Source: Anaerolineae bacterium
GTDB lineage: Bacteria; Chloroflexota; Anaerolineae; Caldilineales; Caldilineaceae
Direction of reading: 5' to 3'
NCBI GenBank assembly: GCA_030432295.1
Contig: JAUIHI010000002.1
Span: 186,001 to 250,000 of the forward strand
Length of the DNA stretch: 64,000 bases
Below, piece after piece: positions 7,229 through 54,064 of the stretch; positions within the stretch are counted from its first letter, which is position 1; every line of letters starts with the position of its first letter. Below the pieces are notes generated by a model. The model did not search any database and was not told the DNA's origin. It saw nothing but the letters and a program-made list of their open reading frames with translations. The translations under genes and the position numbers were made by a program.

Positions 7229-10200
7229 TCACAGTGGCCGCCGTTCTCGTTCCATCTCAATCATACGTCTGATCAGCGGGTATATTCTCTCCGCCAAACC
7301 ATCCCAGTCTGGTTCCTGATCGTTGTCCATCTCATCATCTATCTCGTCATCCACATCCGAGTCCCCGCCCTCGTCTGGGCTGCGCTGTATGCGCTCTTGC
7401 AAGGCTCGCTGCAACGGATAGTGGGTCGTCGCCCCAGTGGAGCCACCAGCCGGAGCCACAGCCGTCTGCGGATCGGAAGCGCCTGGTGTCCCTTCCGCCA
7501 ATCCATTTTGCGCCAGACTGGGCCGATCCAAAAAGCGCTGGACGACCGGCATCGATTCAGTGGAGACCCCGTCCAGCACCGGCCCCTCGGCCTCTGCCCG
7601 TTGGACATCCACCCCACCAGCGAGAGCAGGCAAAGAGGCAAGGGATTGCCCCAGCACGGCCCGACGCCGAACCACAGGCAGATCACCCGAAGCCGACGAG
7701 GCAAATCCACTCCCTGTCCCGCCGGAACCGACACGAGTGTCGATGCGGCCCTGACTGCCATTGCCCACCGCGCGGGTAGCCTTAACAGGGCCGGGGCTAC
7801 TGCCAGGCCCGTTGCTGGGACGGGGAGCCAGGGGTTCCCGCTGCACAGATCCCTGCCGCAGCAGAGCCTGGATGCCCTGCTCCACCTGCCCGGCAGCCTG
7901 CTCTTCCCGCTGTACACTCCCCCGTAGTTGATTGACAGAAGGCAGCGATAGGGGCATAAGCCCTGCCCCTTCCGCCCCGTTCTGGGGCTGAGCCATCTGT
8001 TCCGAGCGGCGCACGCTTGGATTCGTCCCCACCGCCACGTGGGTCAACTCATGGCCGAGCAGGGCCAAATTATCGGGCCGATCCAACTGGGCCAGCGCCG
8101 AACGCTGCAAATAGACCGTCTGGCCGTGGGCCGCCGCCTCCACTCCCAGGGGTTCCAGCCCCGCGGCCTGCAAGCGCACACCGCTAAAATCCCGCTGCAA
8201 GACCCGCTCCATTAGCGTGCGCGGACGCCGGGGCAAAGGCATCCCTCCGGAAGGTCCCCGTTGCAGTTCCGCCGCAGCCCGTTGTATGGCTGTCGTCCGC
8301 TGGTTGCCAGCGGACCGCTGCGCCCCTCTGGTAGGAGAAACGGGCGTCCCTTCCCTGCGCTTGAAACGCCAGCCCCGCTCCTCCAGCAGATCAACCGTCG
8401 CCGACGCGGAAACAGGCCCCGTCGAAGACCCCGTAGAGGCCCCCGCAGCAGAAGTAAAATCCTGGGCGGGCTGACCCAAAGAAGCCGATACAGCACGGCC
8501 GCTGGCAAGACCGGCTTGGCTCAAAGGCATCTCACCGCCAAAGTCACCACCCGCGGCCCCGCGCTGCACAGCCGCCGAGGGCGAGGCGGATGCCTGTTCG
8601 CCGCGGCTCAAACGCCAGCCAAGGGCATCCAACAGACCCACAGGCTCATCAGCCCCCGCGAAATCCTGGGCGGGCCAACTCTGGGAGACAGGGGCAAAAT
8701 GGCTGGTGGCAAGACGGCGTTGGGCCAAAGCAGCCACAGATCGACTGCCCGCGGCTATCGAAGCAGCTCGTTGCACCGGGCGGCGAGACGCAGAAGCGTT
8801 GACAGAAGCCGGAGTGCCCGGTGGGGAAATCCGCGGTGTAGGCGGTCGCTGTGCGGACGAACGCTGGGTAGACGGACCAGCGGTAGAAACCACTCCCCTC
8901 GGTTCTGCTCCCCTGCCCCGACGCATAACCGCCTCCACCTGTTCGGCGACACGCTCCTCCTCTGCCAGACTCATCTGCACCAACTGACGGGAGAGACGCT
9001 GGGTGAGGGAAGGCGCAAGCGGATGGGCCAGGGGCATATCCGTTCTATCGGGCGAACGCTGCACCCGATTCTCGGCCAGCAAAGGGGCGGCCCCGCCCGC
9101 GGCCACGTGGGTCAATTCGTGGCCGAGCAGGGCCAGCGAATCGGAGCGGTTCAGGTCCGCCTGTGCCCGATCCAAATAGACAGTATTTCCCTGGGCCGCG
9201 GCTTCGATCCCCAAAGGGCCAAGCGAGGCCATCTGCACCCGTACCCCTGCAAAATCCCGCTGCAAAACCCGCTCCAAAAGCGTGCGGGGTCGGTCAGGAA
9301 GGGGGTGGCTGTGGCCTGTCGCCAGCCCGGTCAACGCCCGCTGCACCCTTTCCACCGGGGCAGCCGAGGCATCCGGGACCGGGCGGGAACGCTTGAAGCG
9401 CCAACCGCCCGCTTCCAAGCGCTGCACAGCCGCGGCAGCGCTCTGGGTCGGCCCAATCCGGCCAGCCCCGGTCACAAGCGCACGCTGCCGGGGCGTTTGA
9501 GGCGAAATAGTTCCAGAGACGACGGTGCCTCGTCTTTGACTCGGGGCAGTTGCGCCAGCCCGCTGGGAAAGAGTGGGCGTATCAGCCGCCTCCCCAGCAG
9601 ACGGCGGCGCAGACTGGGCTGCTGATGACCCACCCGTATCCGTCCGGGTAGATGCGCGCAGCAATCGATTCAGGGCTAATTCCAAAGGAACGAAAGCCGC
9701 TGGAATCGAAGGCTGGGTGGCCTCCCGCGCTTCTGGCCGATTCCCAGGCGATGGCAACAACCCGCTAGGCCGCAACAACTCATCGCCGCTGATAGCAGCC
9801 GGACCAGCCAAATCCCGGCCAGAATGAACCGTTGACGATTCTAATGTCGGCGTCTCTAGCGTTGACGGCTCTGCGTCGTGGAGCAAATCAGACCGCCACA
9901 GATCAGAGACCGGCTGCACCTGGTGGCGGTTCTGCTGGCGGACTGTCAGGTTCGACGCCGAACGGCCAATTGCACCGGGCGAAAGGAGGGTCTTCGGCGT
10001 TGGCGCAACCTCATCCGCAAAGGCTTCCCCAGGGGCAAAGCGCTGCGCATCGATGGGTGCTGATCGTTGCAGCAACCTGCGTCGGATGTCGCCAAAATCC
10101 CGGCGCAACACCAGCTCGCTCAACGGACGCACCGGAGCAGAGGCCGGAGCAGGCCCAGAAAGAAATTGGGGAATGGAGCGAGAAGCGTCCAACCGCCAAC

Positions 10201-30200: not shown

Positions 30201-30812
30201 CAGCAGACAGCCCTGCCCAAAAAGCTGGCCCGCCCCGCGCCGGGGGTGGCGAGCCTGTTGCAGCGGTTGGAGCCGCTGGTGGAACCGGAAGCTGTGGCAA
30301 TCCTGCGCGCGGCCGCGGGTTCCTATGCCTGGGCCTGGGCCGAACACTTCAGCCAGGAGCACGACCCCAGCCAGATTCTGGGCGAGCGCAATATCTTCCG
30401 CTACCGGCCACTGACCGGCCTGCTCCTGCGCGCGGACAAAGAGACCGAGCCGTCCGCGTTGGCCCTGGCTCTGCTGGCCGCGGCGACGGTGCGGGCGACG
30501 GTCCATCTCAGCATCGGGCCGGGGATGGAAGGCTGGCATTGGTTGAGCCGGGTGGAGGGCTTTGTGCTGGTGGAGGAGGGGGAGAGCAATCTGGTCTCCC
30601 AGCTACAGGTGACGCCGCCCCGGGTGGATCGTCTGCGGGCGCTGGCCCCGCTGGACGCAGAGTTGCGCCGGGCGCTCAACAACGGGGGCATCAGTGTCGT
30701 GGAAGGACCGGTGCTGGCCAATGGCCGTCTGGAATTGGGCCACTATCTGCGCGAGCAGGCCGTCAGCCAGACGGTGCATCGCTACGGGAATGTGCTGGCG
30801 AAGTGGCGTTGA
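27252..30812 (+). CDS. putA: Bifunctional proline dehydrogenase / L-glutamate gamma-semialdehyde dehydrogenase
   Basis: This 1186-residue PutA converts proline to glutamate in two steps, via an FAD (betaalpha)8 barrel and an NAD aldehyde dehydrogenase. Residues ~60-440 hold the barrel, with YISVKVSSVFSQINLTAYRH, then RLVKGANLAMERV-like IRIVKGANLAMERVEAAL and AVKPEVDANFKRM. Residues ~530-1010 hold the dehydrogenase, with TPPWNFPFAIPAGGVLAALM, the glutamate region FAETSGKDSLI and the catalytic Cys in GHNGQKCSAASLAI near residue 785. There is no N-terminal ribbon-helix-helix DNA-binding domain, so it should not self-regulate as E. coli PutA does. The last ~170 residues are a weaker C-terminal domain. 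Confidence 0.94.
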   Translation: MPRAPFELPPAELAQEAVALAEKLLIQARSQQTSDEKEQSERLARLMNDPLGKELTIAMVDQAFRSHQPARIADQISHLLDEYGTPHYMDWWERAALTVGGVMGHYLPAVVVPPIIARLRQETRTVILPGEEGDLRRYLQKRRAGGVRLNLNQLGEAILGEEEAARRMAAYLALLARPDVEYISVKVSSVFSQINLTAYRHTVELVKERLCTLYRQAMAHSYTHPDGHTSHKFVNLDMEEYRDLHLTLDAFKEVLDEAEFMPLSAGIVLQAYIPDSFHEQQKLTDWALQRTGRGGAPIKIRIVKGANLAMERVEAALHDWPQAPYAVKPEVDANFKRMAAYGCHPERARAVRIGVASHNLFDIAYGLLLRQRAGVEEFVEFEMLEGMANHQARAVQAEADGLLLYAPVVKTADFHSAIAYLVRRLDENTAPENFLHDLFGMEPGSEEWQKQREQFLHACSLMEKAKAVPNRTQNRLGEQPQPHPGFHNEPDTDWALPANQRWIADIADEWRQKAIEPIPLQVAGEFVHTDEMGDGIDPSRPDAVSFRYSLATPELVERALATGVEAQKSWGNRSVSERKTILLAVADELARRRGDLIGAMLREASKTPSEGDPEVSEGIDFALYYARSLDKLADQPDVTFAPLGVVVVTPPWNFPFAIPAGGVLAALMAGNSVIFKPAPEAVLTGWQIAQALWAAGVPKDVLQFLPAPDNEIGRQLIVDERTAAVILTGSIETARLFQGWRPELRLFAETSGKDSLIITALADRDQAIKDLVRSAFGHNGQKCSAASLAILEAEVYDDPDFRRQLRDAAASRAVGSAWELASLQTPLTQPPSPKLLRALTTLDPGEEWLLEPKPLATAGQEIGDPALHRLWSPGIKLGVQPGSFFHTTECFGPVLGLMRAQDLDEAIDFANAVDFGLTGGIHSLDDREVERWLERVEVGNAYVNRHITGAIVRRQPFGGWKASSVGPGAKASGPNYVHQFGHFQQTALPKKLARPAPGVASLLQRLEPLVEPEAVAILRAAAGSYAWAWAEHFSQEHDPSQILGERNIFRYRPLTGLLLRADKETEPSALALALLAAATVRATVHLSIGPGMEGWHWLSRVEGFVLVEEGESNLVSQLQVTPPRVDRLRALAPLDAELRRALNNGGISVVEGPVLANGRLELGHYLREQAVSQTVHRYGNVLAKWR

Positions 30813-30835
30813 CACAGTAATTCCGATAAACAGGA

Positions 30836-31153
30836 TTACGCCTGTTCACGTATCATTACAGCACGTAGAACAGCGTTGATTTCGGTTTGATAGGAGGCCA
30901 TATCGGTCCGTTCGGCCCGCTCTGTGAAAAAGGCAAGGACATCGCTGTCCAAAAGTATGGCTACATTCACTTTGCCAGATGCAGATATCTCCTCTGGCGT
31001 TGCGCGATGGCGAGCCAGAAAGCCACCGCGCCGAAAGATGTGTCGGCCCGGACGCAAGACTTCATCTTCCGTCAACCCAGATTCCAGATCGGCCTGGAAT
31101 TCTTCTTCTGTGACTTCAACGACGATCTCCTGCGACTCAATTTTGTTCTTCAT
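30836..31153 (-). CDS. BrnA-like antitoxin domain protein, apparently orphan
   Basis: The 105-residue product ends with KVNVAILLDSDVLAFF and YQTEINAVLRAVM, the C-terminal pattern of BrnA/CopG-type antitoxins. The N-terminal half has an EEFQADLESGLTEDEVL acidic segment instead of a short linker. BrnA normally follows a brnT ribonuclease gene. The 637 bases upstream on this strand have no BrnT-like frame, so the toxin is missing or elsewhere. It points towards putA on the opposite strand, with only 23 bases between the two stop codons. Confidence 0.65.
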   Translation of the reverse strand: MKNKIESQEIVVEVTEEEFQADLESGLTEDEVLRPGRHIFRRGGFLARHRATPEEISASGKVNVAILLDSDVLAFFTERAERTDMASYQTEINAVLRAVMIREQA

Positions 31154-31790
31154 TTTTGTTCAGGTTCCAAGTGAAGTGCATGGCTGTAGTGTAGAAAATC
31201 TATGGATGGATGTCAATCTTAAATTGTATTGGTCAGGAGTATGCTGGAAAAGAATTGGGACGCTGATTCAGAAGGCAAAAACCCCTGTTCCTCTGCGTTT
31301 ATCTACGTATAGCTTTTGCAATCCTGACCTTACTCTCTACACTTTGTCGATCTTTCGTTTACGTTCTTCGACTATTTGGACTATTTGAACGTCTATATCG
31401 GCGGGCGACGGAGAAGGAACGGTTGTATACGGACATTATTTCGCAATGCATACTGAATAGTCAAGCAAAATAAGATAACCACCCAAACACTTGCGGAATC
31501 CTATCCTTTCGGGTACGATACGGATCGCCGCACATACTCAACTCCTATTATCACATACTCAACTCCTATTATAGAGAACCACCCTCGTGATCATTCCCAT
31601 TGCAATTTTCCAGTCAATACGAATCGAATGCACCAATAAAAAGATAGGATAGCGCTTGCTTCGGAGGCTTGATGGCAGGCATTTTTTGAGCAGAAGAGCT
31701 GGTGCAGAATATTCATAGTTGGACAATCAACCAACACAAGACATAGTGGGACAAAAGTGGAATCTACAGGAATAGGAAGTCAAAACTGTT
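31154..31790. other. AT-rich intergenic region at the left edge of the defence island
   Basis: No gene is visible in this 637-base stretch. Composition shifts from GC-rich to AT-rich at roughly 31200, marking the likely island edge. It contains a tandem 21-bp duplication (31531-31572). No integrase, tRNA or clear flanking direct repeat was found. A promoter for the methyltransferase gene is expected here but is not obvious. Confidence 0.6.
31531..31572. repeat. Two tandem 21-bp repeats upstream of the methyltransferase gene
   Basis: The unit begins CACATACTCAACTCCTATTA and ends with a T. It is present twice with no mismatch, at 31531-31551 and 31552-31572, about 220 bases before the methyltransferase start. 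It could be a regulator-binding pair or a scar of insertion. Confidence 0.9.
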
Positions 31791-32792
31791 ATGAAGAACC
31801 AGTTATACAATACAAAATACGGCAAAATGATAGTTGGGGATACAATTCGATTATCCAGAAGCTACCTGAAGCGTTATTACAAGAACAAATTCAATCTGAT
31901 CGTCACCTCGCCTCCATTTCCCCTTAACAACAAGAAGAAATATGGAAATTTGATTGGTCAAGAGTATTTGGATTGGTTTGCTCAGTTAGGTTCCATTTTT
32001 TCCGAATTATTGACCGAAGATGGTTCTGTAGTTATTGAAATTGGTAACGCGTGGGAACCAAATAGGCCAGTACAATCACTGCTTCATTTAGAGTGTCTAT
32101 TACGGCTAGTAAACAATTCGAGATCCGAGTTAAGATTAATTCAAGAGTTTATTTCATATAATCCAGCTCGGCTTCCGTCACCTGCACAATGGGTTACAGT
32201 AGACAGGATTCGAGTAGTCGATAGCTACACGCATGTCTGGTGGCTTTCAAAGACCGACTTCCCAAAGGCCGATAATCGTAAAGTGTTACGCCCATATAGT
32301 CGAAGCATGCAACGTCTGCTTGATACGAAGAAATTTAATGCTGGCAGACGGCCATCAGAACATATCGTAAGCGAAAAAGCATTTGCGAAAGATAACGGCG
32401 GCAGTATAGCTCACAATCTCTTCGAAATGGAAGCAATCGACGACACAAGAGATGTTCGATTACCCCACAGCGTACTAAGTTTCTCTAACACCAATTCAAA
32501 TGACTTCTATCTCACATCTTGCCGAGAACAAAACATCAAACCTCATCCAGCCCGAATGCACGGTGGATTGGTAAATTTCTTCATCGAATTCTTGACTGAT
32601 AAAAACGACCTAATACTGGACCCATTTGCCGGAAGTAATACTACTGGCTACTGTGCTGAGAAACTAGAGCGCAGATGGATTTCGATGGAGGCCAATGAAC
32701 AGTATGCAAGTGATTCAAGAATCAGATTCACAGACCCAACATTGGACGCCAAACTGACTCTCACTGAAGATAGGGAGAAAAAAAATGATTGA
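31791..32792 (+). CDS. Beta-class DNA methyltransferase of the HerA-NurA cassette
   Basis: This 333-residue amino-methyltransferase has catalytic motif IV, TSPPF (residues ~39-43), near the N-terminus. The AdoMet motif DPFAGSNTTG (~278) lies near the C-terminus. The order IV-then-I defines the beta class, and the TSPPF form is commonest in N4-cytosine enzymes, though N6-adenine cannot be excluded. Residues ~100-250 would hold target recognition. Its stop overlaps the HerA start by 8 bases, so the two are translated together. Codon use is AT-rich compared with flanking genes. It probably protects host DNA from the partner nuclease. Confidence 0.9.
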   Translation: MKNQLYNTKYGKMIVGDTIRLSRSYLKRYYKNKFNLIVTSPPFPLNNKKKYGNLIGQEYLDWFAQLGSIFSELLTEDGSVVIEIGNAWEPNRPVQSLLHLECLLRLVNNSRSELRLIQEFISYNPARLPSPAQWVTVDRIRVVDSYTHVWWLSKTDFPKADNRKVLRPYSRSMQRLLDTKKFNAGRRPSEHIVSEKAFAKDNGGSIAHNLFEMEAIDDTRDVRLPHSVLSFSNTNSNDFYLTSCREQNIKPHPARMHGGLVNFFIEFLTDKNDLILDPFAGSNTTGYCAEKLERRWISMEANEQYASDSRIRFTDPTLDAKLTLTEDREKKND

Positions 32793-34866
32793 ACAAAGCA
32801 TTCGCGATATAGCTGATGTGGACATCTTTGCAGAAGGTCGAAGCGACAATTTATTCATCGGCCGTCCCTTTTATTTAGGATATGACAAAGCAATATTGCT
32901 TGTGTCAGATGCCTGGAAACACAGAGTTAAGGGGATTCCCCAAGGTGCGCTGCTTCTGGCCTTCTACGACGGCGAAGACAATGTTGACGAAGCCTTGCTT
33001 CTGAGAGCGCTATCTCCATCGAAGTTACCGACAGACAACGATGTTGTGAGTTCAATGATCGAATATTATAAAGAAGGTACGGACATTAGCGGGCGCGCTG
33101 GTAGTAATGGAATAAGCAAATTAGATGACTTTACGCGTTATGAATTCAGCTTTTCAGGTTTGGAATGTCGTGTTCTTGGCTCATTTTACCGATTAAGAAG
33201 AACCGTTGATGACGAAGAAACGTCGGTAACTGAATTTGGAGCTGATATTGAAAATTTCTACTCACCGAACAATTACAGTGTCTACAAGGCAACAGGGAGT
33301 GTTCTCAGAAAGATCGTAAATCAGCGAGATGGAGAGAATATTGCGGGCAATGAAAATGAATTTCGCATTGGTCATGTCAGATTTAGCTCTAGTCGTAGAT
33401 TTCAAATGCAAGAAGAATTGGTGGAAGTGTACATCAGTCCACAAGATTTCATTGGGAAAAGGACAGCGCTATTCGGTATGACTAGAACCGGGAAGTCAAA
33501 TACCGTCAAGAAGCTGATTGAGGCAACCGCAGAAATTTCAAAAAAAGCTCCAGGCGAAGAACTTCCGAATGCCACTCAGAGTGAACAGCATAAACAGCCA
33601 CCTCTACTCAAACAAGCGCAGGCTAACGAGCCATTGATGAAGAATGGCTCTCCTGCATATCCAGTAGGACAGATCATTTTTGATGTAAATGGAGAATACG
33701 CTAATGATAATCTTCAAGATGATGGTACAGCGATCTTCGAGCTTTACCGAAACGACGTGACAAGATACAGCGTCCTTGAGAAACCTGATTTTGAAGTGAT
33801 GAAAGTCAATTTTTACACGGAGGTTGAAACAGGGTTTGATCTCATTAGGAGCTATCTTGATGATAGACGGATTACCGGGGACTATGTGAACAATTTCGAA
33901 GCTGTTGATCTTTCGATACCAGAAAGTCAGAGTGATGACTTCTCTGCTAGCATACGCTCTGGCAGAATTCGAGCTGCCTATCTTTGCTGCTTAAGAAAAG
34001 CAGGTTTTTTGCCACCCAATAATTTTCGAGTCAAGTTTTCTGGAAAAGCAGAAATAAACGCCAAAGTAAAGGAAGGAGGCATTGATCCTGCGAAAAACAT
34101 CACTATCGATGAGGCAGTCTCCTGGTTTGAATGGGTTTGGAGGAATTATGATAGCGAAGAATTCTTTAAGAAATACGAACAAACTAAAGGCCATGAATGG
34201 GCAGATGACGATCTGAAAGCGCTGCTCATTTTTCTAACGGGCTACAAGCAGCCTGGCGAGAAGAACTCCGTAAGCGGCTACAAGAAAATCAGGGGTAAGG
34301 AACTACAGGATTTACACACAAGCACGTCCGATAAAGCCTTTGAGATAGAAATTCCTAAAAAGCTGAGGGCAGGAAAGATAGTTATCGTAGACCTTTCACA
34401 AGGTTCAGCTACCGTTCAGAAGTTGTATTCCGAGCGAATTTGTAGAGCTTTATTTGCCAATTCAATGGACAGATTTGTCAAAAACCTGCCGAATAATTTC
34501 ATTCAGTTTTATTTTGAAGAGGCCCATAATTTGTTCCCGAAAAAGGAGGAACGAGACTTAAGTGACATATATAATCGGATAGCGAAGGAAGGAGCAAAAT
34601 TGCATTTAGGCATGATTTATGCCACCCAAGAGGTTAGCTCGATCAGTTCAAACATTCTCAAAAACACACAGAATTGGTTTATTGCCCACCTCAATAACGA
34701 CGACGAACTCAGAGAATTAAAAAAATACTACGACTTCGCTGATTTTGTACCATCCTTGCTTCGATTCAGCGCAGGTAGTGATAAGGGATATGTCCGTATG
34801 AAGACCTATACGAATCCCTTCGTAGTACCTGTACAGATTGATAGATTCTTGGCGAACAGGAAATAG
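32785..34866 (+). CDS. HerA-like DNA-translocating ATPase
   Basis: This 693-residue FtsK/HerA-superfamily ATPase has Walker A in LFGMTRTGKSNTVKKLIE near residue 230. The HerA-type aspartate motif IFDVNGEYAND is near 300 and Walker B FYFEEAHNLFPKKEERD near 575. A sensor-like segment MIYATQEVSSISSNILKNTQ follows near 610. The N-terminal ~200 residues look like the HerA beta-barrel (HAS) domain. HerA forms hexamers that pump DNA and activates NurA in archaeal end resection and in several bacterial defence systems. It sits directly between the methyltransferase and NurA genes. Confidence 0.9.
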   Translation: MIEQSIRDIADVDIFAEGRSDNLFIGRPFYLGYDKAILLVSDAWKHRVKGIPQGALLLAFYDGEDNVDEALLLRALSPSKLPTDNDVVSSMIEYYKEGTDISGRAGSNGISKLDDFTRYEFSFSGLECRVLGSFYRLRRTVDDEETSVTEFGADIENFYSPNNYSVYKATGSVLRKIVNQRDGENIAGNENEFRIGHVRFSSSRRFQMQEELVEVYISPQDFIGKRTALFGMTRTGKSNTVKKLIEATAEISKKAPGEELPNATQSEQHKQPPLLKQAQANEPLMKNGSPAYPVGQIIFDVNGEYANDNLQDDGTAIFELYRNDVTRYSVLEKPDFEVMKVNFYTEVETGFDLIRSYLDDRRITGDYVNNFEAVDLSIPESQSDDFSASIRSGRIRAAYLCCLRKAGFLPPNNFRVKFSGKAEINAKVKEGGIDPAKNITIDEAVSWFEWVWRNYDSEEFFKKYEQTKGHEWADDDLKALLIFLTGYKQPGEKNSVSGYKKIRGKELQDLHTSTSDKAFEIEIPKKLRAGKIVIVDLSQGSATVQKLYSERICRALFANSMDRFVKNLPNNFIQFYFEEAHNLFPKKEERDLSDIYNRIAKEGAKLHLGMIYATQEVSSISSNILKNTQNWFIAHLNNDDELRELKKYYDFADFVPSLLRFSAGSDKGYVRMKTYTNPFVVPVQIDRFLANRK

Positions 34867-34870
34867 AGCT

Positions 34871-36241
34871 ATGGCAATACGTACGCGAAGTCCAAAGCCA
34901 AGCGAATGGGCGGCAAAAACAAATCACACTCACATCATCAATGATCCTTTCGTAAAGTCGTTTCTTGAAACCTGTGATCCGCCACCAGATTCATTCGACG
35001 AAGAATCTGGTGATTTTGATTCGATTCAAGACTTTGACAGTTCGATCCCCAATCCGATTCGGCATATTCTGGTAATTGACGGAGGATACACAACAGTCGA
35101 AGTAAAAAAGAACTTTCCCTCTTCACAGATCGCTTTTTTCCAATTCGGCGCGGTAATGTTTCGAGTAAAAGATTTGGAGGCATTATCGGAAAAGTCATTC
35201 ATTTTCCCAGAAGATATGCGCAAACTCCATAATCTCCAACGCTTTAAGCTTGCATTGCCAATAAGAAATCTAAAAACCCGGGCTCAAGAGTCCCTAACAA
35301 ACTCAGTTCGCAAGGCAATTTATGATTTTTTTATGCAGGATCGGGATAGCTCAAGTTTCATGGAGACCTTGAAATGGTTTGTTTTTGAAGAATACAGACC
35401 GAGCCCTTTACAGAGTTATACACTGGGATCTGATCCGAATCTAGAGGAAGCCGGCAGCACAATTGAGCTACATCGCACAGATATCAGCAGCAAATACACC
35501 TTTTCAACAAAAAATGGACTCGTATATTTGACCGATGTATTCCGCCTCCACGAAGCAATTGACGACGATCAAGGCGCAGGGGGAATTCTTGGATATGTGA
35601 CGCGATTGATTGAGCAACTTATTTTGGTACATTTTATAAAGACGATAATGCGAATTCAGCCATCATTGTTGAGTGAGTTCATTTTCATCGTAGATGGACC
35701 GCTCAGTTTTTCTGGTCAAACTGCGAATATGCACAAGCCCATGCGCGATCTCTGTAACTTTCTTTACCAGAATCGAAACCTCTATCTTGTTGGAATCGAG
35801 AAAAGCGGTGCATTTGTCGAACACGCGCAACAGGTATGTCAATCAGATAACAACGATTCAGTAATTGGTCGAGGAAAATATCTTCTACTGAGCAACAGAT
35901 ATATTTACAAATATATTATGCCTGGCAATTCAGATAGAATGCACTATGGGTCTACTTCGTACTATGGAGGAAAAGTCATTTTTCATTCAAACGACGGCCA
36001 AATACTAGTGTTGACAGTGCCGACGCCGGACAAAGAGGCGATACTCGCTCCAAAATTGAGCGAGTATCACAATCTAAACGCTGTGTTGACGAATGTTCAG
36101 AAACTTCGTTGTGCAATGTATGATGATGCCATTGTTCCTGTTGCATTGGCTAACAAACTGGTTTCTTTAGCCAATCACCCTAGCAAAGTTCTTTTGGAGA
36201 AATTTGCCCTTTCATCCATGGCTTCCTCTAGCGGAGCTTGA
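34871..36241 (+). CDS. NurA-domain nuclease
   Basis: This 456-residue protein carries NurA marks: an RNaseH-like aspartate in ILVIDGGYTTVEV near residue 70, a second in FIFIVDGPLSFSGQ near 272 and the C-terminal YDDAIVPVALANKLVSLA helix near 417. NurA is a Mn-dependent 5'-3' nuclease working with HerA. The frame is also open from an ATG at 34838 inside the HerA gene. The ATG at 34871 is preferred because it lies 4 bases after the HerA stop, with AGGA upstream. The AT-rich composition matches its two partners and not the next gene. Confidence 0.85.
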   Translation: MAIRTRSPKPSEWAAKTNHTHIINDPFVKSFLETCDPPPDSFDEESGDFDSIQDFDSSIPNPIRHILVIDGGYTTVEVKKNFPSSQIAFFQFGAVMFRVKDLEALSEKSFIFPEDMRKLHNLQRFKLALPIRNLKTRAQESLTNSVRKAIYDFFMQDRDSSSFMETLKWFVFEEYRPSPLQSYTLGSDPNLEEAGSTIELHRTDISSKYTFSTKNGLVYLTDVFRLHEAIDDDQGAGGILGYVTRLIEQLILVHFIKTIMRIQPSLLSEFIFIVDGPLSFSGQTANMHKPMRDLCNFLYQNRNLYLVGIEKSGAFVEHAQQVCQSDNNDSVIGRGKYLLLSNRYIYKYIMPGNSDRMHYGSTSYYGGKVIFHSNDGQILVLTVPTPDKEAILAPKLSEYHNLNAVLTNVQKLRCAMYDDAIVPVALANKLVSLANHPSKVLLEKFALSSMASSSGA

Positions 36242-36268
36242 ATCCGAGACTTCATAAACCCCCCCCAA

Positions 36269-37459
36269 ATGAAAATCACCGACCTGCAAACTTTCGTCGT
36301 CGCCAACCCGCCGCCCCACTTCGGCGGGTTATACTTTATCTTCGTCAAGCTGACCACCGACAGCGGCGTGACCGGCTACGGCGAAGTCTATTCTGTGCCC
36401 TTCCACCCCCGGGTGGTGGAGCAGATGATCGCGGATGTGGCCGAGCGTTACGTCATCGGCGCGGACCCGTCCCAGATCGAGCGGCTCTGGCGCATCCTCT
36501 ATTCCAGCGGCTTCACCCAGCGCCCGGACACGTCGATGATGGGTATTCTCAGCGGCATCGAAATGGCCTGCTGGGACATCCTCGGCAAGGAGGTGGGCAA
36601 GCCGGTCTATGCCCTGCTGGGCGGGCAAGTGCATGAAAAATTGCGCTCCTACAGCTATCTCTACCCCAGGGACGGGGACCGTACAAGTGTCTACAAAGAC
36701 CCGAAACTGGCCGCCGAGCGGGCCGCGGAGTATATATACCTGGGCTTCACCGCCATCAAGTTTGACCCGGTAACCCCCTACTCCGCCTTCGATCCCCGCC
36801 AGCTTTCGCTGGAGCATCTGGACCTGGCCGAACGCTTCTGCAAACTGCTACGCGAAGCCGTCGGCAGCAAGGCCGATCTGCTCTTCGGAACCCACGGCCA
36901 GATGACCCCATCCAGCGCCATCCGTCTGGCCCGCCGCCTGGAAGCCTACGATCCCCTCTGGCTGGAGGAGCCGACCCCGCCGGACAATATCGAAGAGATG
37001 GCCCAGGTCGCGCGTTCCACGACGATACCCATCGCCACCGGCGAGCGGCTGACCACCAAATACGAGTTTGTGCGGGTATTGGAAAGCAAAGCAGCCTCGA
37101 TTTTGCAGATGGCCCTGGGCCGGGTCGGCGGCATTCTGGAAGCCAAGAAGATCGCGGGGATGGCCGAGGCCCATTACGCGCAGATTGCCCCCCACCTCTA
37201 CTGCGGCCCCATCGAAGGCGCGGCCAATATTCAGCTGGCCGCGTGCAGCCCCAACTTTCTCCTGCTGGAAAGCATCCAGACCTGGGGCGGCTTTCACAGC
37301 CAGATTCTCAAAAAGCCGATTGTGTGGCAGGATGGCTATGTGATTCCGCCCACGGAGCCGGGGCTGGGGGTGGAACTGGACGAAGCGGTAGCTCTGGCCC
37401 ACCCCTATTCGGGCAAGCGGCTGCATCTGGAGATGACCGACGAGCCGGTATACGAGTGA
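36269..37459 (+). CDS. Enolase-superfamily sugar-acid dehydratase (mandelate racemase/galactonate dehydratase-like)
   Basis: This 396-residue enzyme has the MR/MLE layout: a capping domain starting MKITDLQTFVVANPPPHFGG, then a beta-barrel with FGTHGQMTPSSAIRLARRLE, DPLWLEEPTPPDNIEEMA near 230 and metal ligand region PIATGERLTTKYEF near 255. The catalytic His region QIAPHLYCGPIEGAANI is near 310. This pattern fits acid-sugar dehydratases (galactonate or related), which remove water to give 2-keto-3-deoxy acids. The exact sugar cannot be told. It is GC-rich like the chromosome and marks the right edge of the AT-rich island. Confidence 0.85.
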   Translation: MKITDLQTFVVANPPPHFGGLYFIFVKLTTDSGVTGYGEVYSVPFHPRVVEQMIADVAERYVIGADPSQIERLWRILYSSGFTQRPDTSMMGILSGIEMACWDILGKEVGKPVYALLGGQVHEKLRSYSYLYPRDGDRTSVYKDPKLAAERAAEYIYLGFTAIKFDPVTPYSAFDPRQLSLEHLDLAERFCKLLREAVGSKADLLFGTHGQMTPSSAIRLARRLEAYDPLWLEEPTPPDNIEEMAQVARSTTIPIATGERLTTKYEFVRVLESKAASILQMALGRVGGILEAKKIAGMAEAHYAQIAPHLYCGPIEGAANIQLAACSPNFLLLESIQTWGGFHSQILKKPIVWQDGYVIPPTEPGLGVELDEAVALAHPYSGKRLHLEMTDEPVYE

Positions 37460-49836: not shown

Positions 49837-50376
49837 TCATTGCCTGTGGTTCTGGATCAGCCTTTTGTATGCGCCAATAAACCTCGCCAATTCGTCCTCT
49901 GTTTTCTGGTCAGTGATGCTTCCCTGCTCATCTACCTTGCCCTTAACTCCCTGGACCAATAAAGTCGTCTCGTCTGTGAATCTAGCCATTACAGTTCTCA
50001 TTATCAGTTGCAATTCTTCATGGCCTTTTTGTCCATGGGCCGAAGCAGTGATGAGGCCAACGGGTTTTTCGGAAAAAACGGTCGTTGACACACACCATTC
50101 AATGGCATTTTTGAGTCCACTTGGAATGCTAAACACATATTCGGGTGTGCAAATCAAAACCCCATCCGCGCAACTTATATTATCTCTCAATTCGGTGATT
50201 ACTGCGGGTGGATTATTGGCTGATAACTCTGGATCAAAATGGGGGAGCATTTTTAGTTCATTGAATATCTTTACATCAAACTCATCTCGGATCATTTTTT
50301 CGAAATTATCCACCAACACGCTGTTTGCTGAATTTCGACTTGCACTTCCAATGATTGCCAATATCTTTTGTTTCAT
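49837..50376 (-). CDS. NADPH-dependent FMN reductase-like flavoprotein
   Basis: This 179-residue flavodoxin-like protein has the FMN phosphate loop IIGSASRNSANSVLVDNF and the flavin-contacting ICTPEYVFSIPSGLKNAIEW near residue 75, then GLITASAHGQKGHEELQLIM. Relatives reduce quinones, azo compounds or FMN. It is less GC-rich than the ilv-leu genes and belongs to the run of unrelated minus-strand genes at 49.8-53.0 kb that resembles an integron cassette array. A G7-type tract and attC-like cores lie upstream (50377-50572). Confidence 0.85.
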   Translation of the reverse strand: MKQKILAIIGSASRNSANSVLVDNFEKMIRDEFDVKIFNELKMLPHFDPELSANNPPAVITELRDNISCADGVLICTPEYVFSIPSGLKNAIEWCVSTTVFSEKPVGLITASAHGQKGHEELQLIMRTVMARFTDETTLLVQGVKGKVDEQGSITDQKTEDELARFIGAYKRLIQNHRQ

Positions 50377-50572
50377 ACGAGTGATTTTTCCTGCTTCACA
50401 AGGAGCTTCCTTGCCATTTTTTTTGGGGGGGGTGTAAGATGTCTCTCACCGCTTCGGACAGGGTGGAGCCATCCAACGTCGGACAGGGGTTCAGCGAACT
50501 GATCCCGATGCTCACTGCATTTCCTCTGGTCGCAGCCTAACATCTAACGATGTCGGGTCCGCGGCCTGGATG
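50377..50572 (-). other. Gene-free spacer with attC-like core sites
   Basis: Read on the minus strand this spacer contains GTTAGGC (50535-50541) and GTTGGAT (50471-50477), both fitting the GTTRRRY core of integron attC sites. No full attC fold could be drawn by eye, so these may be chance or degraded sites. Confidence 0.4.
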
Positions 50573-50749
50573 TCATTTTTCATTCTCTTGTTTGTTAGAA
50601 ATAACGAAAAAAACGATGCCAAGGACAAAGAAGGCTAATCCGATAGCCCGAAAGACTCCCAATTGATTAGCCAGGCTGACCGCGAAAAAGATTATGCCAC
50701 ACAACAAAAACAGTATGGCCGTGATTCGTAGAAATTTTGTTGAGTTCAT
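50573..50749 (-). CDS. Small two-helix membrane protein (58 aa)
   Basis: This short ORF encodes two transmembrane helices (ITAILFLLCGIIFFAVSLAN and AIGLAFFVLGIVFFVI) and a charged tail, SNKQENEK. It starts with ATG, with AGGATTGCACCT just upstream, and lies alone between two spacers of ~200 bases. Small membrane proteins of this kind are common in integron cassettes. A core-like GTTAAGC on the same strand (50770-50776) lies about 20 bases before its start. No function is known. Confidence 0.65.
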   Translation of the reverse strand: MNSTKFLRITAILFLLCGIIFFAVSLANQLGVFRAIGLAFFVLGIVFFVISNKQENEK

Positions 50750-50983
50750 AGGTGCAATCCTGTTATGGAGCTTAACGGTCGAGTTCAGTTATAGGCACAA
50801 TTTTTTGGATTTCTGCGTTGCACCCAACCCATTGTTCAGTCATCCGCGCACTCTCGAAAGTTGTCGCCGGCCTCACTGCTATTATCAGGCAACTGAACAA
50901 ACGCCCCCTGAAGTTCCCCGCCCCATACGCCGTTTATGGTTTGCGGCCATGCCCGCAGCACCCGCTCAACCTTAGCCGTACTG

Positions 50984-51568
50984 TTAAAAATCGCATCCGG
51001 CTGGCTGAGGCGGCTCAGCCTCTACGCCATCTGCGAAGTCTGGTGTCAGTTCGTTCGCCACAAAGCCAGATTGAACGGTCCCCTGCCAGCTTTTCCCTCC
51101 ATATCCGGCAGGATGCAGATGCGCCCGAACGATGACAACCCTATCAGCTTCGATGGCAACCGGCCCGCCAGCCCGGGTAAACGGCTGCTCGTTCACGTGG
51201 CTATGGGTTAGAATTCGCCGGTAGATCAATTCCCCCTGTTCGGTAAGGACTTCCCACCAGTCGGCATACTGTTCACATCCCGTGTCGGGGCTGGCAATTT
51301 CGACCGAAAATTGATACGCTCCCCTGCTGCCCGTCACTTGCACCGAAAGGACATCGGCTTTGGCTGTCTCTGTGGCCGCCTCTATGGCCGCTGGCTGATC
51401 TGGCTGATCTGGCTGATCTGGCGGGCTGCTGTCTTGATTGTTGCTTTCCACGGGAGCAGTGGCGTTGGGCGTGGGCAAGCTGCTGGCACAACCCCACAGC
51501 GAAAGTGAGATTCCCAGCAAAAAAAGAATGAGCCAGAATGTTCGAGCTCTTCGTTGTGACAACTTCAT
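50984..51568 (-). CDS. Putative lipoprotein of unknown function
   Basis: This 194-residue protein has a lipoprotein signal (TFWLILFLLGISLSLWGCAS, lipobox Cys near residue 27). A low-complexity linker with three DQP repeats follows. A ~120-residue beta-rich domain follows, with VTGSRGAYQFSVEIASPDTG and HLHPAGYGGKSWQGTVQSGF. Two Cys (in TGCEQYADWW and near the C-terminus PAGCDF) could form a disulphide. It should sit on the outer face of the membrane. I do not recognise the domain. GGAGGAATG overlaps the start region. Confidence 0.75.
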   Translation of the reverse strand: MKLSQRRARTFWLILFLLGISLSLWGCASSLPTPNATAPVESNNQDSSPPDQPDQPDQPAAIEAATETAKADVLSVQVTGSRGAYQFSVEIASPDTGCEQYADWWEVLTEQGELIYRRILTHSHVNEQPFTRAGGPVAIEADRVVIVRAHLHPAGYGGKSWQGTVQSGFVANELTPDFADGVEAEPPQPAGCDF

Positions 51569-51661
51569 TCCTCCTCTATCTCCGCTCAGACCGCTGATAT
51601 TGCCAGATTCCCCGCAGCATCCCGGCCCGGCGGAGCCGTTAGGCCGTTCAAGATTTTATCT

Positions 51662-51720
51662 ATCCACAGATTTCAGTCCTGATTCTCGGTTATCTGTGAA
51701 AATCCGTGCCATCTGTGGAT
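51662..51720. repeat. Imperfect palindrome between the lipoprotein and GyrI-like genes
   Basis: ATCCACAGAT (51662-51671) and ATCTGTGGAT (51711-51720) are exact complements, with inner ATCTGTG/CACGGAT-like words. It lies between an attC-like half site (51753-51764) and a GTTAGGC core in the opposite orientation (51638-51644), as if inserted in an attC. Confidence 0.6.
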
Positions 51721-51765
51721 CGTTATTTCTTTGGAAAAGCCTTAGTCACCGTGCATGGTTAGCCG

Positions 51766-52374
51766 TCATCTCATTGGTTGCCGGATGATTGTCTTCCATT
51801 TCATTGGGTCTGCGCGCCGAATATCGGTCAGGTAAATCTCGTGATGCTTTCCGGTGAGGCTTGAATGGGTGCCAATATACTCATGCAGCTTTGCAATCGT
51901 TGGACCCTCTGCTGAAAATGGGCCGATGTGCAAAATCTGGGCGCACCGGCCCTCGGAAAATTCCTCCAACCGCAGTTTATGGAGGGCGGGAAGATTCTTC
52001 TTCCTGCCGACCGTAGAAATAGCATCCTGGATGGTTTCGTCAGGTACGAAAGACGGCTGCAAAATCATCATCGTCCAATTCCAGTTCGCTTTGTCGCTGG
52101 TAGTGAAGGCGGATAAGTCATCAGCCCACCAGAGTCCTTCGAGCGGCATCACAGCGTAGTCGATCTTCTGAGCCCCCTTTTTCACGGCAAATTTTGCCGT
52201 GTAGGAGACTGAAAATAGAGCCTCAACGGCTTGCGCATACTCCTGGGACGTGTTCGGGTCGCCCTTGCCATCAACCATCAGGTATTTGAGCGGCGGCACA
52301 GTGACTTGCACGATTTCTTTAGCGGAGACTTTGTAGAGCTGTTTCAGCTCCTTCTTGAGGTCGATTTTATTCAT
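51766..52374 (-). CDS. GyrI-like small-molecule-binding protein
   Basis: This 202-residue protein matches the GyrI-like family: VTVPPLKYLMVDGKGDPNTS near residue 25, YAVMPLEGLWWADDLSAFTT near 72 and HIGPFSAEGPTIAKLHEYIG near 150. These domains bind hydrophobic compounds, some hydrolysing or sequestering toxins. It starts 18 bases after the end of a well-formed attC-like site (52392-52490) and ends next to another half site, as expected of a cassette gene. Confidence 0.8.
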   Translation of the reverse strand: MNKIDLKKELKQLYKVSAKEIVQVTVPPLKYLMVDGKGDPNTSQEYAQAVEALFSVSYTAKFAVKKGAQKIDYAVMPLEGLWWADDLSAFTTSDKANWNWTMMILQPSFVPDETIQDAISTVGRKKNLPALHKLRLEEFSEGRCAQILHIGPFSAEGPTIAKLHEYIGTHSSLTGKHHEIYLTDIRRADPMKWKTIIRQPMR

Positions 52375-52391
52375 GGATGCTCGCTATGGCG

Positions 52392-52490
52392 GTTAACGTC
52401 CGCGCTGTGCGGCCAACCCGCTACTCCGATAAAATATCGAGTCTAGGTAAATCCGGCCGATTCCCAGGTCCGCTCCAGCGCATGGTTAGC
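52392..52490 (-). mobile_element. attC-like integron recombination site
   Basis: On the minus strand the site runs GCTAACCATGCGCTGGAGCG ... GCGCGGACGTTAACC. The two ends are an imperfect palindrome. The TAAC/GTTA boxes pair, then three unpaired bases, then GCGCTG pairs, then an extra unpaired base, then GCGG pairs and a further extra base. Box-spacer-box with extrahelical bases is the attC architecture. The cores deviate by one base from RYYYAAC and GTTRRRY. It lies after the 170-aa gene and directly before the GyrI-like gene. Confidence 0.65.
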
Positions 52491-52508
52491 TTGCTCTTTC
52501 AAATCAAC

Positions 52509-53021
52509 TCAGCAACTCCCTTGATGCTGTTGCATGTCTCTCCACAATGGTGACCTCCGGATTTTCTTGTGCCTGATCAAATAGCGAATATCCTGCAAAT
52601 TATCATGACTCAACTGGTAATTATAGTAGTTTATGTATTCCAGAACGCTAAAGATGTATAGCAAATGCGACCAGATTGTAATTTGAAAATCCACATGAGA
52701 TATTACCTTGCCTAAAACAAACAACACGGGGTACACCGCCAGGATAAGCAGATTAGCTTTTTTAAAAAACGGGAAAACTCGATAGCTGTACGGTGGTAAA
52801 GACGTTTCGTTCTGGCGAATAGACTGTAACTTCAAATGCCAATAAAACACGCCCTGTGCCAAAATGATACAGATGCTAAACATGCTCACTACATACGGCT
52901 GCCAATGTATGGTTTCCCTGCCCGACAAGATAAAATACATACATGCTGGCAAGAAGAAGATATTGAACAATTCTAAATTGCGCAGAGAACGCAATCGCTT
53001 AATCAGCTTTACTCGTTGCAT
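52509..53021 (-). CDS. Integral membrane protein of unknown function (170 aa)
   Basis: Four hydrophobic segments are visible: LFNIFFLPACMYFILSG, YVVSMFSICIILAQGVFYW, LLILAVYPVLFVLGKVIS and IWSHLLYIFSVLEYINYY. The termini are basic (MQRVKLIKRLRSLRNLE and IRYLIRHKKIRRSPLWR). No family is recognised. It is AT-rich compared with the chromosomal genes and is followed by an attC-like site, so it reads as an integron-type cassette gene. Confidence 0.7.
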   Translation of the reverse strand: MQRVKLIKRLRSLRNLELFNIFFLPACMYFILSGRETIHWQPYVVSMFSICIILAQGVFYWHLKLQSIRQNETSLPPYSYRVFPFFKKANLLILAVYPVLFVLGKVISHVDFQITIWSHLLYIFSVLEYINYYNYQLSHDNLQDIRYLIRHKKIRRSPLWRDMQQHQGSC

Positions 53022-53143
53022 ACCCCTATCTCATTATTGAATTGAACATCACCAGTTTTGTATAGCCACCCAACTATTATTATCCAGCAGTTGACAGAAC
53101 AACTGTAGCAGAGAACGCATTGTTCCGCAACAGATTCCCAAAC

Positions 53144-53203
53144 AGACGTACCGGAAAAGGCGGGTAACGGGGATCCCCGTCGCCCGCCTTTTCCGGTACG
53201 TCT
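53144..53203. repeat. 30-bp near-perfect inverted repeat
   Basis: AGACGTACCGGAAAAGGCGG continuing to 53173 is mirrored by 53174-53203 with two mismatches in 30 and no loop. Its AAAAGGCGGG...CCCGCCTTTT core is shared with the MarR terminator at 54076-54114. Confidence 0.8.
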
Positions 53204-53239
53204 CATCCAGGGCCTGGGCTTCCAAGTCCGTATTTTCAG

Positions 53240-53479
53240 TTACTTGTCTTCGGGAAGAGCAGCAAAGTCCTTCCTTGTTTGCAGATACCACCCCATGCCT
53301 TTTAGGGGGTTTTTCCACCTGCCCTTCATCATCTCCAAAGCACTTTTGTGCGTTTCATCCCCGCTGGCTACCATTTCTCTTAAGTGGGCATCTTGTGCTT
53401 TTATAACATCATCAGCCGTCTTTCCCTGAAATGGGGTATCACAGGGTCCACCCATTTGAGCACAAGTCATTGTTTTCAT
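53240..53479 (-). CDS. Small DUF1059-like protein (79 aa)
   Basis: The N-terminus TMTCAQMGGPCDTPFQGKTA followed by DDVIKAQDAHLREMV resembles DUF1059-type small proteins with paired cysteines, and GWYLQTRKDFAALPED follows. The ATG at 53479 lies 9 bases after AAGGAG; the ATG at 53488 touches that site and is less likely. It is transcribed divergently from the MarR gene and is a natural candidate for its control. Function unknown. Confidence 0.65.
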   Translation of the reverse strand: MKTMTCAQMGGPCDTPFQGKTADDVIKAQDAHLREMVASGDETHKSALEMMKGRWKNPLKGMGWYLQTRKDFAALPEDK

Positions 53480-53526
53480 AACTCTCATCTCCTTAACCTA
53501 CTCTGATTTGGGATTGCTTCCATATC

Positions 53527-53555
53527 TTGCATCTAAACCATTTTACCTTTATAAT
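53527..53555 (+). promoter_or_regulatory. Sigma-70-type promoter of the MarR gene
   Basis: TTGCAT (53527-53532) and TATAAT (53550-53555) are 17 bases apart, predicting a start near 53562. TATCTT and AAGATA flank the promoter as an inverted pair and could be part of a MarR operator in this 108-base divergent region. Confidence 0.7.
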
Positions 53556-53596
53556 AAAGATACTTCAAAATAGAGATAATGTCAAGGATAGTTTCT

Positions 53597-54064
53597 ATGG
53601 CGGAATCAACAAAGACATACCTGAAAAAACGAGCCTTGATGGCAGTAAGGGATTATGGCGTTACCTTGACCCAGTTCCGAAATGCCATCAACGAATGGGC
53701 GGGACTCAACGCAACCGATATGGAATGTCTTAGGCTGCTATTCCTCAAAGGCATTGCCACCCCCACGGAACTTTCCAGGCATACAGGGCTTACGTCTGGT
53801 GCGACGACTGCCATGCTTGATCGGCTCGAAAAGGCAGATTTAATTGAACGGCGACCCAATCCTGATGATCGCCGCGGAGTTCTGATTACCCCCGCAAAAT
53901 CGGCCACCGAAAAAGCTGCGTCATGGTTTGAATCAGCGAGAAAAGCGCAAGACGAATTGATTTCAAGTTACTCGGAAAGTGAACTGGAAATCATTTCTGA
54001 TGTCTTTGAACGATTTTCAAACCTATGGGCCCAGGAACGCGAGAAGTTACGAAAAGATCAGTAG
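53597..54064 (+). CDS. MarR-family transcriptional regulator
   Basis: This 155-residue winged-helix regulator has GLNATDMECLRLLFLKGIAT, recognition-helix region TPTELSRHTGLTSGATTAML and wing DRLEKADLIERRPNPDDRRG, as usual in MarR. MarR proteins bind palindromic operators and release on ligand binding or oxidation. The ATG at 53597 is preferred because AAGGA lies 8 bases upstream; an in-frame ATG at 53579 would add six residues. The terminator follows 12 bases after the stop codon, so it is monocistronic. Confidence 0.92.
   Translation: MAESTKTYLKKRALMAVRDYGVTLTQFRNAINEWAGLNATDMECLRLLFLKGIATPTELSRHTGLTSGATTAMLDRLEKADLIERRPNPDDRRGVLITPAKSATEKAASWFESARKAQDELISSYSESELEIISDVFERFSNLWAQEREKLRKDQ

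Follow-up and report, generated by a model that had tools for sequence, protein, structure and literature searches.

The DNA analysed here, which we call the window, is a stretch of 64,000 nt from an Anaerolineae bacterium (GCA_030432295.1, contig JAUIHI010000002.1, positions 186,001-250,000 of the forward strand; GTDB lineage Bacteria; Chloroflexota; Anaerolineae; Caldilineales; Caldilineaceae). Three genes follow each other on its plus strand and encode a DNA methyltransferase, a HerA-type translocase and a NurA-family nuclease. An earlier reading, made without database searches (below, the sequence-only reading), had placed all three genes there, and had also given the junctions between them correctly: the methyltransferase and HerA genes overlap by 8 bases (32785-32792), and 4 bases separate HerA from NurA (34867-34870). 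The features are as follows:

31221..36238, no strand: extent of the insert, missing from the same-genus genome G304, which has 265 bp instead (blastn against locus L135)
31221..31790, plus strand: low-GC leader of the insert, presumably the promoter region
31791..32792, plus strand: beta-class DNA methyltransferase, M.PvuII-like, putative modification subunit (333 aa; PF01555, 98.7 bits)
32785..34866, plus strand: HerA-type hexameric DNA translocase, TdpA-like (693 aa; DUF87/HerA, 51 bits)
34871..36241, plus strand: NurA-family RNase H-like nuclease, TdpB-like (456 aa; PF09376, 24.1 bits, cut-off 21); the likely start is the ATG at 34871, the first in-frame start being a TTG at 34838

The cassette lies in an AT-rich island among GC-rich genes, as had been noted before, with a GC content of about 0.41-0.44 (31-36 kb) compared to 0.57-0.65 on each side. 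In G304 (locus L135), the window segments 30591-31133, 31155-31220 and 36239-37447 are collinear by blastn, and 265 bp replace the 5,018 bp found between 31220 and 36239 in the window. Since the same-genus genome has both flanks and only 265 bp between them, we conclude that the cassette is an insertion. Neither flanking repeats nor an integrase were seen at the edges of the insert in the window. The leader upstream of the methyltransferase gene contains a perfect 21-nt tandem duplication (31531-31572). The neighbours of the cassette in the window are metabolic genes and an orphan BrnA antitoxin gene (30836-31153, minus strand) that has no BrnT toxin gene beside it; L135 retains BrnT at 9484-9756, and it appears that the toxin was lost beside the cassette insertion. 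A second low-GC stretch of the window (50001-54000, GC of 0.46 in three of its four kilobases) is perhaps another insertion.

The assignment of the methyltransferase to the beta class, already made in the sequence-only reading, holds: SPPF lies before DPFAGSNTT, and the best solved match is M.PvuII (1boo, E 1.2e-70). PADLOC reports a type II methyltransferase (PDLC03323, 281 bits), and the identity with the PvuII m4C methyltransferase is about 41% (tblastn). The product is probably N4-methylcytosine. We did not adopt CAGCTG as the target by analogy with M.PvuII, because the methyltransferases of the cassettes share a conserved insert of about 18 aa relative to M.PvuII in the putative target-recognition region.

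For HerA, a profile search of the PDB gives TdpA as the top match (8wet, E 8e-36; runner-up 2e-19), and the predicted model (pLDDT 83) also matches TdpA best by fold (Z 29.7 over 518 residues; next Z 27.4). TdpA is well ahead of other HerAs in the sequence comparison but only narrowly so in the fold comparison. Walker A, the EE of Walker B, R598 and Q615 are invariant in 29 of 29 aligned homologs.

The identity of NurA was the weak point of the earlier assignment (24 bits). A profile search of the PDB returned only zinc-finger chains with weak E-values, and the fold was therefore predicted (pLDDT 88). The top match of the model is TdpB (8wfd_G, Z 21.1), and NurA structures follow with Z 10-14, the archaeal NurA 2ygk reaching 14.0; these matches settle the question in favour of NurA. 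D70, D222 and E248 are invariant in all of the 34 homologs, and D275 in 33 of them. The catalytic residues of both proteins are thus intact, if, as we assume from knowledge of the families, the invariant residues of HerA and NurA have the expected catalytic roles. A zinc ribbon (CPxC...CxxC) was considered as a general feature of NurA and rejected, given that several aligned NurAs lack its cysteines. In the window NurA (residues 178-224) the zinc-ribbon cysteines of many homologs are absent, and they are also absent in its near relatives.

We asked how often the three genes occur together. A family scan of genome contigs gave at least 511 relatives, of which the best 80 were surveyed, so the counts describe the near relatives of the window and not the whole family. 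These nearest loci come from about 15 phyla and include one archaeon. Among the carriers of the family are cultured bacteria such as Alcanivorax nanhaiticus and Mucilaginibacter straminoryzae. A PvuII-like beta-class methyltransferase gene directly flanks HerA-NurA in 67 of the best 80 loci: in 64 it is upstream on the same strand, in two upstream on the opposite strand, and in one downstream. The distance between the methyltransferase and HerA genes has a median of 1 nt, with 27 overlaps, for 59 same-strand cases among the best 80. The conserved three-gene neighbourhood that the sequence-only reading had anticipated is therefore found, and the association is more than chance.

NurA was surveyed with a profile in 99 loci (L016-L024 and L026-L114). 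It was missing from two loci only, L096 and L114, whose sequence stops at HerA or shortly beyond it. In most loci from L026 to L114 it lies closely 3' of HerA; of the 75 loci in L026-L105 with one HerA and one NurA ORF, 72 have a gap of 25 nt or less, and in L076 it is 371 nt. NurA consists of two ORFs at L088 and also at L024, whereas the contig edge leaves only part of it in L109 and L110. The loci L021 and L024 lie on the minus strand. Over 61 cassettes, the evolutionary distances of HerA and NurA covary strongly (r = 0.88) and those of the methyltransferase and HerA less so (r = 0.41, or 0.57 without four outliers).

Among the loci for which no PvuII-like methyltransferase was called, L052 and L097 have less than 1 kb of upstream sequence, and none was detected in L085. 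Four loci of a cyanobacterial clade (L046, L059, L065, L069) have an ORF of 82-90 aa just upstream of HerA and no adjacent methyltransferase; in L046 this ORF is an HTH protein according to Pfam. L037 and L092 have a permuted-type methyltransferase immediately upstream (in L092 by motifs in the translation). In L098 there are a D12 and another methyltransferase downstream on the opposite strand. L081 has, upstream, a methyltransferase gene and one resembling ResIII/TnsA; a profile hit and its position placed L082 and L083 in the same group. Both the D12 methyltransferase of L098 and the type III-like genes found in L081-L083 may be neighbours in their own right and not exchanged partners. In viral contigs, an ORF with DPPY or DPPF is found directly upstream of HerA in seven of nine cases; the two that were scanned with Pfam (L108, L112) are D12 methyltransferases, and in L106 a D12 gene lies some 2 kb downstream. 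A temperate Vibrio phage carries HerA (as two ORFs), NurA and a D12 methyltransferase between its integrase and its excisionase/repressor genes. In summary, the trio of methyltransferase, HerA and NurA recurs in bacteria, archaea and prophages, and other branches pair HerA-NurA with different methyltransferases, that is, D12, permuted N6/N4 or type III-associated ones. A quick HerA tree of 97 rows requires eight changes of partner type. The tree places the window beside Pseudomonadota and Cyanobacteria and not with its own phylum, which is consistent with horizontal transfer; its fine placements are uncertain, since the search was short and some branches are long. In L022 (10419-18783), HerA-NurA is followed by ORFs of 888 aa and 288 aa (PDDEXK) and by type III-like Mod and Res genes, and an integrase lies upstream.

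Copies of the cassette family are found on several plasmids, in a phage and in a Tn7-like element; for example, L037 adjoins TnsD/TnsE genes. In a plasmid copy of Deferribacter (L017, 9345-11124), an IS200/IS605 element with TnpB splits HerA. The 88 immediate neighbours of PvuII-type cassettes include matches to Septu PtuA/PtuB, AbiEii and Kiwa KwaB with two to three members each (PADLOC, Pfam), as well as three integrases; the Pfam tally covers the 25 families listed of 127. L065 adjoins DncV-like and SAVED genes (CBASS). The 88 neighbour proteins matched 230 PADLOC families, versus 36 for 57 controls, a rough comparison in which the control includes the L135 methyltransferase and 25 families are listed. 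The defence-island context expected by the sequence-only reading is thus suggested by Septu, AbiEii, Kiwa and CBASS genes beside other copies, judged against a weak control, but not by the window itself, where no further defence gene was recognised among the genes adjoining the cassette.

We consider it likely that the cassette is a restriction-modification-like system against invading DNA, in which HerA-NurA destroys DNA that does not carry the methyl mark. This reading is favoured by the recurrent methyltransferase linkage, the different methyltransferases of other branches, the covariation of HerA and NurA, their kinship with TdpAB, the insertion with its empty site, the sporadic occurrence despite housekeeping copies and the defence genes near other copies; the cyanobacterial clade and L085, the loose tracking of HerA by the methyltransferase and the metabolic neighbours in the window count against it. 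The methyltransferase would methylate a fixed motif in the host DNA, probably yielding N4-methylcytosine. Together, the hexameric HerA ring and NurA would act as a motor-nuclease: the ring would drive duplex DNA into NurA, which would degrade it. TdpABC is a characterised phosphorothioate-based system, and phosphorothioate is reported to prevent loading of the TdpAB motor or to stall it, so that modified DNA is spared; a methyl mark on self DNA might block loading or stall the motor in the same manner, and only unmarked incoming DNA would be destroyed. A further possibility, which we put forward tentatively, is that HerA-NurA is a chassis with exchangeable base-modification gates (m4C, m6A), the ring itself reading the absence of the mark and no site-specific endonuclease being involved. 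In neither HerA nor NurA did we identify a DNA-recognition domain or anything else that reads a target site.

On the other hand, the cassette could be a classical restriction-modification system, in which NurA, alone or with HerA, cleaves DNA at the unmethylated site of the methyltransferase or close to it, ATP-dependent like type I or III enzymes but not processive. From cassette to cassette the target region of the methyltransferase keeps a high conservation (0.70-0.75 per 20 aa), and one constant nuclease could read one constant site; moreover, Iyer and colleagues reportedly predicted in 2004 that a NurA-superfamily protein is the endonuclease of a novel restriction-modification system. However, the failure to identify a recognition domain, the solved relatives, which are motor-nuclease complexes, and the occurrence of the same HerA family next to different methyltransferase classes make this rather unlikely.

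A role in DNA donation or as a module of a mobile element is suggested by ICETh1 of Thermus thermophilus, where one operon encodes a type IIG restriction-modification enzyme, a NurA-like nuclease, TdtA of the FtsK-HerA superfamily and an N4/N6 methylase, and where efficient transjugation depends on TdtA, on the NurA-like protein and on the restriction enzyme (PMC5365140). The methylase of ICETh1 has only a minor effect on transjugation (PMC7767461). The mobility of the cassette family would fit such a role, but the cassette has no type IIG enzyme, neither an integrase nor a conjugation gene was found among the window genes examined, and the position of the phage copy between integrase and repressor favours immunity. 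We regard this explanation as improbable. We give still less weight to a selfish addiction module, in which the methyltransferase would guard against post-segregational killing by HerA-NurA and thereby stabilise the element, defence being secondary. Restriction-modification systems can act as addiction modules and several copies of the cassette are on plasmids; such a role would, however, be compatible with defence.

Near-universality in a clade is expected of a housekeeping HerA-NurA repair pair. Ordinary NurA (Pfam) is present in 128 of 150 genomes of the class, whereas a cassette-type HerA at E < 1e-40 was found in 11 of 400 genomes of the phylum and the cassette NurA protein in 8 of 301. 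Furthermore, the host carries an unlinked housekeeping HerA on contig 61 and NurA on contig 15. The pair is thus not the universal repair pair with a rarely adjacent methyltransferase that the sequence-only reading had named as evidence against its proposal. Although HerA-NurA has a link to repair in archaea and in Deinococcus, an ordinary double-strand break repair pair with a methylase neighbour by chance was discarded as scarcely credible on account of the sporadic distribution, the insertion, the separate host copies and the recurrent methyltransferase linkage.

Most likely, then, this widespread and mobile restriction-like cassette degrades DNA under the control of methylation; the trio probably forms an immune system that puts a methyl mark on the DNA of the cell and breaks down invading DNA that has none. 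If this is true, a broadly distributed kind of restriction is gained, the NurA of which has no match among PADLOC models, and two questions can be put to the test: by what means a translocating ring detects something as small as a methyl mark at sparse sites, and whether the system requires free DNA ends.

Several known systems share parts of this design. Sir2-HerA and HerA-DUF4297, named in the sequence-only reading, also combine a HerA motor with a partner effector, but in the cassette the partner is NurA with a methyltransferase and not Sir2 or DUF4297, and the HerAs of both systems score below TdpA against the cassette HerA. The nearest relative is TdpAB. The PvuII type II system (pPvu1) has a related m4C methyltransferase, and a cognate enzyme of this kind is predicted for the cassette (1boo, E 1e-70). 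The two differ in the insert in the methyltransferase target region and in the PvuII endonuclease gene of pPvu1, as no gene for a separate site-specific restriction endonuclease was recognised in our insert. The NurA-type restriction-modification family predicted in 2004 is plausibly the present cassette family, and we know of no experiment on it. The tdtA operon of ICETh1, likened here by description, shares with the cassette a HerA/FtsK ATPase, a NurA-like nuclease and an N4/N6 methylase, but has the extra type IIG enzyme, another gene order and a demonstrated role in DNA donation. Given TdpABC, the 2004 prediction and the similar genes of ICETh1, the cassette is a variant of an already known kind. 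Calling it under-described, as before, overstated its novelty; the conserved, mobile, restriction-like three-gene unit remains. A methylation-based cousin of the known systems seems to have no experimental precedent. For T. kodakarensis, HerA-NurA has been found to degrade dsDNA on both strands, and the authors of that work propose a role in antiviral defence (PMC12977600).

The closest comparison is with TdpABC (structures 8wet and 8wfd), whose HerA-type motor and NurA-fold nuclease are the nearest solved relatives of both cassette proteins, at identities of 22-23% for HerA and 11% for NurA in structural alignments. The TdpAB chains have 586 and 358 residues, whereas the cassette HerA and NurA are longer (693 and 456 aa). 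A study by An and colleagues (2025, Nat Chem Biol) ties Tdp to phosphorothioation in its title. The sulfur-inserting TdpC is replaced by a DNA methyltransferase in the cassette; no phosphorothioation enzyme was found in the insert of about 5 kb, where the methyltransferase, HerA and NurA are the only recognised genes, and we therefore do not file the cassette as a member of TdpABC. Modification-gated degradation, which is reported for TdpABC and which we propose for the cassette, would be common to both, and the principle of TdpAB would then extend from backbone to base modification.
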